DNA of 64,000 nt from Curvibacter sp. PAE-UM (GTDB lineage: Bacteria > Pseudomonadota > Gammaproteobacteria > Burkholderiales > Burkholderiaceae_C), in contig NZ_KQ483358.1 of assembly GCF_001432305.1 (NCBI RefSeq), positions 2,722,114-2,786,113 on the forward strand, given 5' to 3'. Position numbers and translations under genes: made by a program. The notes beneath the pieces were generated by a model. It was not told the origin of the DNA. It saw nothing but the letters and a program-made list of their open reading frames with translations, and ran no database searches. Of the stretch, positions 58,380-61,432 are shown piece by piece; positions within the stretch are counted from its first letter, which is position 1; every line of letters starts with the position of its first letter.

Positions 58380-58970
58380 TTATCGCCGGTCCACCAAGGC
58401 GTGGGCGATGGTGCCCAGGTCCACGTACTCCAGTTCGCTGCCGATGGGCACGCCGCGCGCCAGCCGCGTAAAGGCCACACCGCGCACCTTGAGCGCCTCG
58501 GCGATCACATGCGCCGTGGCCTCACCCTCGGCCGTGAAGTTGGTGGCGAGGATGACCTCGCGCACCGTGCCATCGCTGGCACGCTCGAAGAATTGCTTGA
58601 GTCCGATATCGCGCGGACCGATGCCGTCCAGCGGGCTGAGCTTGCCCATGAGCACGTAGTACAGGCCCTTGTAGGCACCGGTACGCTCCAGCGCCATCTG
58701 GTCAGCAGGTGTTTCCACCACGCAGAGCTTGCTGGCGTCGCGCGCCGGGTCCTGGCAGGTGGCGCAGATCTCGCCTTCGCTGAAGGTGTGGCAGCGCGCG
58801 CAATGGCGCACGCTGGTAGCCGCCTCCTGCAAGGCCCGCGAAAGGAGCTGTGCGCCCTCGCGGTCATGCTGCAGCAAGTGAAAGGCCATGCGCGAGGCCG
58901 ACTTCACGCCCACGCCCGGCAACCGGCGCAGGGCCTGGATCAGCGCATCAAGGGTATGGGCGTCGGACAC
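58380..58970 (-). CDS. recR: Recombination protein RecR
   Basis: A 196-residue RecFOR-pathway clamp. The N-terminal HhH ([20 protein letters not shown]), the C4 zinc finger (C-x2-C-x(8)-C-x2-C in [17 protein letters not shown]) and the Toprim domain ([38 protein letters not shown]) are present. Usual order dnaX-ybaB-recR. Confidence 0.97.
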
Positions 58971-58973
58971 GAA

Positions 58974-59306
58974 TCAGAACGGGAATTTCATCCCACCAGG
59001 CAACCCCGGCATGCCGGCCGTGAGCTTGCCCATCTTCTCCTGGCTGGTCTCCTCGGCCTTGCGCACGGCCGCGTTGAAGGCGGCCGCCACCAGGTCTTCC
59101 AGCATGTCCTTGTCGTCGGCCAGCAGGCTGGGATCGATGGTGATGCGCTTGACGTCGTGCTTGCAGGTCATGAGCACCTTGACCAGGCCAGCCCCGGACT
59201 CACCGGTGACTTCGATGAAAGCCAGTTCGTCCTGGGCCTTCTTGAGGTTGTCCTGCATGGCCTGGGCCTGTTTCATGAGGCCGGCGAGTTGTCCTTTGTT
59301 GAACAT
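58974..59306 (-). CDS. ybaB: YbaB/EbfC nucleoid-associated protein
   Basis: A 110-residue DNA-binding dimer: N-terminal helix [28 protein letters not shown], then [32 protein letters not shown]. It lies eight bases after dnaX and three bases before recR. Confidence 0.95.
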
Positions 59307-59314
59307 GTCGTTCC

Positions 59315-61159
59315 TTAAGCGTTGATGTCGATGGGTTTGATGCTGCCCGGCACGATTTTCGCGCCGAAGTCACGCATCATGGTCTGCACGAAGGGGTCTT
59401 CGTAAATCAGTTTCTCTGCGGCCTGCTGCTTCTCTTCTGCAATGGCGGCATTGCGCTTGGCCGGGCTGTCACCCACGCGGCCGATCTCCACGGCCAGGGT
59501 CACATTGTGGCCAGCGGCCTGCAGGGCCGCTTGCAGACGCTCGCGGCTGGAGGTGGAGTTGAGCGACTCGCGTTCCACGCGCAGCAGCCACTGGTCGCTG
59601 TCGCGCGCCACCAGTTGCGACTGCAGGGCCAGTTCGCGCACCAGAGCGGTCACGGCCTCGCTGGCCACCAGCTGCTGCACCGTCAGGTGCCAGTAGGCGC
59701 CCTCCTCGGTCGGCACCAGCGGCGAGCCGGCACTGGGTCCAGGCGCGTCGGCACGCGACTCGGGGGCCACACGCACCGGCACCGCCATCACCTTGGCGGC
59801 GGCGGGCGCACCCGCCACCGGGGTGGCGGGTGGCGTGGGATGGGCGGCATCGACCACGGACAGCACCTGCCCATGGGACGGATGGACCGGCGCAGCGCTG
59901 GACGGCGGGGCTGTCGCCGTGATCGGGCGCGCCGCCACCGGCGGCGTGGGCGCCGAAACGGGGGCCGCTGCGACCGGCGCAGCAGGCCGCGCCACCGGCA
60001 CGGACGCCGCCGCCCGTGTTTCAGGCGATTTCAGTGTTTTTTTTTCAGCCGACCCGGCAACGCCGGGCTTGAAGGCGAGCAGGCGCAAGAGCACCATGGT
60101 GAGCGCGGCGTACTCATCGGGCGCCAGCCCCAGCTCGCCGCGCCCGTGCAGGCACAGGCTGTAGAGCAGCTGCGTCTCGTCGGCCGGCAGCAGCGCGGCC
60201 AGGCGCGCCGTCTCGGCGCCTTCAGGATCGGATTCGTCGGCGCTGTCGGGCACTGCCTGCAGCACGGCCATGCGCTGCAGCACCACACTCATCTCTTCCA
60301 GCGTGGAGGCCGCACTCTGGCCGTTGACGCGCAAGGTCTCGGAGGTTTCCACCACCGTCTTGCCGTCGCCCTGGGCCAGCGCATCGATGAGCTGGAACAC
60401 ATGCGAGCGGTCCACGCTGCCCAGCATCTGGCGCACCGTCTCGACCTGCAGCTGGCCCGAGCCGAAAGCGATGGCCTGGTCGGTCAGCGACAAGGCGTCG
60501 CGCATGGAGCCGCGTGCGGCCCGTGCGATCAGGCGCAGCGCCGCCGGCTCGGCCGGCACGTTCTCGGCCGCGAGCACCTTGACCAGGTGTTCCAGCACCG
60601 TCTCGGGCGCCATGGGCCGCAGGTTGAACTGCAGGCAGCGCGACAGCACGGTGACCGGCACCTTCTGCGGGTCCGTCGTGGCCAGCACGAACTTGAGGTA
60701 CTCGGGCGGTTCCTCCAGCGTCTTGAGCATGGCGTTGAAGGCCGTGTTCGAGAGCATGTGGACTTCGTCGATCATGAAGACCTTGAAGCGGCCCTGCACC
60801 GGCTTGTAGACTGCCTGCTCCAGCAGGGCCTGGACTTCGTCCACACCGCGGTTGGAGGCGGCGTCGAGTTCTGTGTAGTCGACAAAACGACCCGAGTCGA
60901 TGTCGGTGCAGGCCTGGCAGACACCGCAGGGCTGGTCGGTGATGCCGCCTGAGCCGTCCGGGCCCACGCAGTTGAGCGACTTGGCCAGGATGCGCGAGAC
61001 CGTGGTCTTGCCCACGCCGCGCGTGCCGGTGAACAGATAGGCATGGTGCAGGCGCCCGGTCTGCAGCGCATTGCCCAGTGCCCGCACCACGTGCTCCTGC
61101 CCCACCATTTCGGTGAAGCTCTTCGGCCGGTATTTGCGGGCGAGCACGAGATAGGACAT
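59315..61159 (-). CDS. dnaX: DNA polymerase III tau (and probably gamma) subunit
   Basis: A 614-residue clamp-loader ATPase. Walker [21 protein letters not shown], four-cysteine zinc module (C-x(n)-PCGVCQAC), Walker [28 protein letters not shown] motif (LSRCLQFNL), the collar domain to about 365, an Ala/Pro/Val-rich linker (about 380-490) and a C-terminal polymerase-binding region. At 60045-60037 the mRNA has nine consecutive A residues (residues 372-375), right after the collar. Slippage by one in either direction meets TGA within a few codons, so a gamma-like short form is expected. Confidence 0.96.
60037..60067 (-). promoter_or_regulatory. A9 slippage site in dnaX with upstream hairpin
   Basis: The transcript reads CCCGGC-GTT-GCCGGG (60067-60053), seven spacer bases, then nine A residues (60045-60037). 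The zero frame is E-K-K-T-L; one extra A, or -1 slippage, gives K-N-T-E-I-A-stop, and loss of one A gives K-K-H-stop. A possible downstream stem CACGG/CCGTG follows. The position, directly after domain III, is where gamma should end. Confidence 0.7.
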
Positions 61160-61244: not shown

Positions 61245-61338
61245 GACGGGCCTTCCCGCATGGTGAAGCGGCCAACCGGGTCAGGTGGGGAACCAAGCAG
61301 CCCTAACTGTGGAGCCAGTGCCGGGGTCGAGGTCCGTC
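61245..61338 (+). ncRNA. ffs: 4.5S signal recognition particle RNA
   Basis: The conserved SRP domain IV apical region is visible as GGGTCAGGTGGGGAACCAAGCAGCCCTAAC, matching the GGTCAGG...GGAA...AAGCAGCC consensus bound by Ffh. The flanking strands pair into a long hairpin, with GACGG at the 5' end and CCGTC at the 3' end, giving about 94 nt. A further 7-bp hairpin acctcat/atgaggt (61339-61361) follows directly and may mark the end of transcription. It is divergent from dnaX. Confidence 0.92.
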
Positions 61339-61432
61339 ACCTCATACATGTGCGATGAGGTCTGCAGCGCAAACGCGCCATCCAGACCTTGGCACAACAC
61401 CCCCGGGCCGTGCGCCCGGGTCCCCTCGCCGA

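Follow-up and report, generated by a model that had tools for sequence, protein, structure and literature searches.

We identified a run of nine A residues (A9) in the dnaX gene of Curvibacter sp. PAE-UM that is, with a probability of roughly 0.77, a programmed transcriptional slippage site making the short protein gamma beside the full-length tau. Across a large Comamonadaceae-like clade, the presence of the run, its exact length and phase, and the stops that follow it in both shifted frames are conserved to a degree far above chance, and a single dnaX gene probably gives rise to both a long and a short protein in many of these related environmental bacteria. In the 64,000-nt window (the whole stretch of DNA that was analysed), dnaX is a single open frame on the minus strand (59315–61159) encoding a tau of 614 amino acids. 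Pfam matches in the protein are DNA_pol3_delta2, the ATPase lid, domain III (gamma3, residues 238–362) and tau domain V (residues 496–606). With AAA+ domains I-II, the collar domain III and tau domain V all present, the product is DnaX; the best-matching PDB entries carry Pol III tau or gamma in their names.

The A9 run (60037–60045, minus strand; nucleotides 1115–1123 of the coding sequence) lies within GAA AAA AAA ACA, codons 372–375, ten codons beyond the last residue matched by Pfam domain III. The first-pass annotation had placed it just past the collar domain with stops in both shifted frames, and its coordinates, codons and shifted tails (N-T-E-I-A and H) are confirmed here. Gain of one A, or a −1 ribosomal slip, leads to a TGA at 60021–60023 (minus strand) and a 379-aa product with the C-terminus EKKNTEIA, while loss of one A leads to a TGA at 60031–60033 (minus strand) and a 375-aa product ending in EKKH, which a −1 ribosomal slip could not produce. 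Domains I-III (60074–61159, minus strand, up to the Pfam domain III end at residue 362) are common to tau and the predicted gamma; the linker and the tau-only region with domain V (59315–60036, minus strand) are missing from the latter. In the clamp-loader entry 1jr3, E. coli gamma aligns with residues 1–366 of the query, so a product cut at the A9 run keeps the clamp-loader part.

As we picture it, RNA polymerase would add or drop A's on the T9 template and leave a mixed population of dnaX mRNAs. Those with nine (or 9+3n) A's would be translated into tau, and those with any other count would meet a stop in the shifted frame within a few codons and yield gamma, that is, domains I-III with a short tail. 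That slippage occurs in the cell, that gamma is stable and becomes part of the clamp loader, and in what ratio to tau it is made are matters that we infer from the DNA sequence.

The run is the single A9 on either strand of the window; dinucleotide shuffles expect 0.03 occurrences, and any A9 appeared in 2 of 100 shuffles. On both strands of the whole genome (3.63 Mb) there are four A9 runs, dnaX's included, and none of the other three lies in the sense strand of an evident gene. By our reading of the sequence two of these adjoin terminator-like hairpins, and the third falls between two frames that read as ABC-transporter genes, within a frame that has no Pfam match. Read as a slippery heptamer, the dnaX site is A_AAA_AAA followed by ACA, not the A_AAA_AAG of the E. 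coli type.

Relatives were read in three sets from the same family: the genus, genomes drawn evenly over the family, and the best named loci. The genus search covered 26 genomes and gave 27 dnaX rows, some of them the same gene twice; two genomes (G006 and G008) were left out because their weak matches were of the kind given by other AAA proteins. The even draw comprised 150 genomes, 5 of them without a match, and 141 of the 145 matching genomes were read, the other four (G125, G136, G140 and G161) being left out as not read past domain III. The named set consists of the best 80 of at least 543 relatives and is therefore biased to near kin: 58 loci are labelled Comamonadaceae, 20 carry no family label and 2 stand under other labels, and the genera include Hylemonella, Curvibacter, Rhodoferax, Variovorax, Ramlibacter, Polaromonas, Acidovorax, Caenimonas, Xenophilus and Comamonas. 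Removal of 18 duplicates from 248 rows left 230 distinct loci from the family as sampled, whose named members are mostly Comamonadaceae. Run lengths and codons were counted over all 230 loci in the 60 codons past domain III, with no picking by run length; the loci are related, so locus counts overstate independence.

An A-run of at least five occurs in the linker just past domain III in 174 of the 230 family loci, and in 168 of them it is exactly A9. Tabulated by the longest run of at least five, 56 loci have none, two have A6, one A7, one A8, 168 A9 and two A10, so that 59 of the 230 are without a run of 8 or more. All 80 named loci, the best of at least 543 relatives, carry the run (79 as A9, one as A10). 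In the even set a run of at least 8 is found in 76 of 132 genera and missing in 56; no genus is mixed, which says little given that more than one locus was available for just 8 of the 132. Mapped onto a tree of 141 loci, the presence/absence label changes 6 times, compared with 45 for shuffled labels, counts that rest on a tree from a short alignment in which 71 of 138 inner branches are weak. A strict nucleotide pattern matched 127 of 399 family genomes, and its reversed form one genome among the matches listed; this is a weak replicate, as the pattern requires TTCAAGCC and so passes over many true sites with other codons, and it also takes up a few matches that are plainly not dnaX. The proposal that the run is a trait of the lineage thus holds for the family, where it is widespread, but not for the Burkholderiales as a whole, since most of the loci read from other families have no run at this place. 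Around the run the linker is variable: the distance from the domain III anchor ranges from 3 to 42 codons and the sequence varies too, while the run is constant. Tau is kept in one open frame, the shortest open tail being 60 codons in the 171 loci with the run and 205 codons in the 59 without. G, C or T homopolymers of at least 7 were considered as replacements for A9 in loci lacking it and rejected; six such runs in five loci were scattered.

In the 171 loci with runs of at least 8, codon 1 is always xAA (GAA in 161, CAA in 9, AAA in one) and codon 4 begins with A in 170, so the run is longer than the A_AAA_AAR heptamer on which ribosomal frameshifting depends. The expected suppression of AAG synonyms in relatives was borne out: within 60 codons past domain III in the 230 loci, 173 of 180 Lys-Lys pairs are AAA AAA. 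The rest are AAA AAG in four (L056, L094, L133 and L167, of which L094 is an A10 locus), AAG AAG in two and AAG AAA in one. Lysine codons outside the site in the 80 named genes favour AAG (817 vs 549 AAA), and the corresponding linker segment of loci that lack the run does too (51 AAG vs 16 AAA).

Stops in the shifted frames were compared with a synonymous-codon null that keeps the amino acids and uses a single codon table taken from the named genes. In 153 of 168 A9 loci the minus-A frame closes directly where the run ends (null 106.6 ± 5.0), and in 165 it closes within 9 codons (null 115.8). The plus-A (−1) frame, for which the null gives 42.0 ± 5.1, is closed within 9 codons in 163. Both frames are closed within that distance in 160 of the 168 loci, against 26.8 ± 4.2 for the null, and a near stop is missing from at least one frame in the other eight. 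The even set behaves alike: among its 80 A9 loci, 78 have the minus-A stop, 77 the plus-A stop and 75 both within 9 codons (nulls 53.8, 17.9 and 11.1), and 68 have the minus-A stop at the run end (null 46.8). As a positional control, we applied one definition throughout and found both stops at 95.2% of A9 sites vs 6.2% of 18359 other positions in the same genes, and at 1.2% of 1180 positions in the 59 loci without the run. Conserved shifted-frame stops had been named as support for the site, and the relatives show the opposite of the AAG/AAA mixtures and lack of conserved stops that the first-pass annotation had named as evidence against the site.

The minus-A stop is kept in more than one way. 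Codon 5 is CTG in 128 of 171 loci, and the next base is A in 127 of these 128. In 23 loci it is CTA, which makes up 1.5% of Leu codons in the named genes, and there the next base is A (13 loci) or G (10 loci). A minus-A stop is formed by CTG-A, CTA-A and CTA-G and not by CTG-G, a combination seen once; with CTA at codon 5 the stop is therefore kept whether A or G follows, a case of covariation. On the tree of the 80 A9 loci the position of the plus-A stop changes at least 36 times and the codon-5/6 type 17 times, while A9 stays. Such a pattern of stops would be expected if selection acted to terminate both shifted frames.

Elements that could stimulate ribosomal frameshifting were sought around the run. 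A Shine-Dalgarno (SD)-like element is not enriched at A9 loci, the strict motif being present in 1 of 171 and a looser one in 8 of 168, where 5.2 are expected. The perfect 6-bp hairpin CCCGGC GTT GCCGGG (60053–60067, minus strand), reported earlier as ending seven bases upstream of the run, does exist 5′ of it, but by our reading it is absent from close relatives; it is not a conserved part of the site and is probably incidental. We rejected an upstream hairpin as a conserved stimulator in the family at large: the longest perfect stem averages 4.83 bp vs 4.57 bp in shuffles, and stems of at least 6 bp occur in 35 of 168 loci vs 130 of 840 shuffles. The 60 nt after the run have a mean energy of −22.67 vs −19.72 in other windows of the same linkers. 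Relative to codon shuffles the mean z is −0.27, with 7 of 168 loci below −2, and relative to dinucleotide shuffles it is −0.57, with 16 of 171 below −1.96; z is −1.06 for the locus in the window. Downstream structure is thus in at most weak excess.

A lysine tRNA was also considered as the reason for slippage in place of frameshifting. The genome of the window has both lysine tRNAs, UUU and CUU. The CUU pattern turned up in 55 of the 82 genomes that have the run and in 52 of the 59 that do not, counts in which a missing pattern may also reflect an incomplete genome or a variant gene. It is commoner where the run is absent, and the idea gains no support. The two lysine tRNAs, an argument made for Thermus as a proposed reason for slippage and not as a defining trait, do not separate family genomes with the run from those without.

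A small natural contrast comes from family loci without A9. In L133 and L167 (genomes G053 and G107), AGGAG or GGAGG lies upstream of an A_AAA_AAG and the −1 stop comes one codon on. The hairpin downstream has a z of −2.36 in L133, and L167 has none of note (z −0.2). Judged by this anatomy, a switch from transcriptional to ribosomal slippage is possible at these two loci. L056 also has A_AAA_AAG, with a −1 stop after 3 codons, but it lacks the strict SD motif; its other frame is closed 7 codons on. L101, the A8 locus, has no SD motif and its nearest minus-A stop is 35 codons away. The contrast drawn by L133 and L167 is suggestive only and not clean, because L056 keeps its minus-A stop and L101 has lost its own while lacking an SD motif.

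The first-pass annotation had left the mode of slippage open. Programmed −1 ribosomal frameshifting on A_AAA_AAA alone, in the style of E. coli dnaX, would also give gamma: the heptamer is in frame within an A9 of this phase, the −1 stop is strongly kept as counted above, the weak excess of downstream structure would fit, and three family loci without the run (L056, L133 and L167) have A_AAA_AAG with a −1 stop 1–3 codons later. Ribosomal −1 slippage requires the heptamer and a single stop, and it leaves unexplained why the minus-A stop is selected as well, at once in most loci and with CTA and CTG covarying with the next base, and why the run is a heptamer plus two further A's, nine in all. 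The near absence of the strict SD-like motif argues against it too, and the two loci that do have the anatomy of ribosomal frameshifting, L133 and L167, lack a near minus-A stop (40 and 38 codons away). We therefore consider ribosomal frameshifting by itself unlikely, and the selected minus-A stop together with the unconserved stimulators leads us, on sequence alone, to favour transcriptional slippage. A combination of transcriptional slippage with some ribosomal slippage on the same run is a little less probable still. The plus-A frame would serve both processes, and poly-A sites are described as able to shift at either step (PMC3711429); the stops and the run length are nevertheless explained without a ribosomal part, and the SD-like element is not conserved. 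A point against transcriptional slippage itself is that slippage by E. coli polymerase is reported, in passages of PMC6260861, to be greater on T runs than on A runs.

Two further explanations dispense with a programmed product or with slippage in expression, and we regard both as very improbable. A lysine-rich linker could be kept for its amino acids, with the A-run as a by-product, and E-K-K-T or E-K-K-S is indeed common at the run position; but AAG is the commoner lysine codon elsewhere, the Lys-Lys pairs here are almost uniformly AAA AAA, and stops in both frames lie far above a null that keeps the amino acids. The run could instead be a contingency tract toggling tau by phase variation at the DNA level, given that homopolymers can alter their length in replication. 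Against this, a frame-breaking length occurs in 0 of 171 loci, and the three of these loci with a length other than A9 all stay in frame.

Outside the family we read the tau tail of 82 loci from the order, made up of the 22 best matches listed and 60 picked from listed places; 20 more were added later. There is no A-run of at least 6 in 63 of them, and a run of at least 8 in 13. All seven loci read in family f49 (L322, L327 and L374–L378) carry CAA AAA AAA ACT, placed 15–26 codons beyond domain III. The plus-A frame closes immediately in each of the seven and the minus-A frame within 3 codons in five, so that this appears to be a further A9 site whose two stops are in reversed arrangement. In f12 (L290, L383 and L384, all of one genus) an A10, GAA AAA AAA AAG CTG A, lies near domain V, and each of the 3 loci read has both stops. 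In f7 two of the eight loci read (L263 and L265) have an A9 that lies 155 and 127 codons, respectively, beyond domain III and is followed at once by a plus-A stop. The runs in f49, f12 and f7 may be separate inventions. L292, L307, L313 and L379 (families f14, f28 and f36) have an A8–A9 a few codons before TTT GAY GGY, which itself gives the plus-A stop; three other f14 loci (L380–L382) have no such run.

A broader generalization, to which we give slightly less than even odds, is that betaproteobacterial dnaX keeps the gamma-length outcome and swaps the means: the A9 with its double stops in most of the Comamonadaceae-like genera sampled, the apparently separate A9 of f49, the A10 of f12, and at least two local switches to A_AAA_AAG with an SD-like motif and without the second stop. 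If so, gamma would be important enough to be re-evolved, and slippage of RNA polymerase would be the default.

Programmed transcriptional slippage in dnaX of Thermus thermophilus was reportedly described by Larsen et al. in 2000. That gene is described as having A9 with stops in both frames and as making gamma by transcriptional slippage (PMC5009743, PMC1088944), and in E. coli the T9 template run of Thermus dnaX is reported to cause shifts in either direction, −1 and +1 (PMC6260861). A site of the Thermus type is expected to give mRNAs that differ in their number of A's, and gamma and tau at about 1:1. The site in the family resembles it in having a sense-strand A9 inside one tau frame, nearby double stops and a short product predicted to be gamma; it differs in belonging to an unrelated lineage, the Betaproteobacteria, and in that slippage is here a prediction. 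For E. coli dnaX the site described is A_AAA_AAG, accompanied by a Shine-Dalgarno-like stimulator on its upstream side and a hairpin on its downstream side (PMC3711429, PMC5009743). With it the family shares the gene, the same kind of short product (here predicted) and a near −1 stop, whereas the A9, the stops in both frames and the unconserved SD-like element set the family apart. Transcriptional realignment has been proposed for dnaX genes in two frames with A7–A10 (Chlorobium, Chloroherpeton and others in a GeneTack cluster; PMC3711429). These share the poly-A run, but there tau requires the shift and here gamma does. In Caulobacter crescentus gamma likewise comes from one dnaX gene, but by proteolysis: passages of PMC7566177 describe ClpXP processing of tau, with no frameshift site. 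Processing of the ClpXP type is a possible route to gamma in family members without A9.

We found no report of a dnaX A9 site in Comamonadaceae in the literature searched, a scope outside which Larsen et al. 2000 falls. The device is already known from Thermus thermophilus; its occurrence in a Comamonadaceae-like family is apparently new. Gamma production is described as well characterized for few routes and in few bacteria (PMC5009743). Earlier surveys, as their methods are presented, sought slippage that lengthens the product (PMC1088944) or disrupted frames (PMC4066793), and the latter kind of search cannot see sites where the short product needs the shift (PMC4066793). Since such designs pass over this class, more such sites may be waiting. 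If the run is held for gamma in 76 of 132 genera read in one family, transcriptional slippage would be a normal route of expression for a core replication gene and not a Thermus curiosity, and the purpose of gamma would become testable in new organisms.

Just upstream of dnaX in the window, on the opposite strand, lies a bacterial small SRP RNA gene (RF00169, 58.2 bits; 61245–61341, plus strand). Downstream of dnaX on the minus strand (58380–59306), Pfam confirms two frames, one of the YbaB/EbfC family (110 aa) and one for RecR (196 aa), in the familiar gene order dnaX-ybaB-recR.
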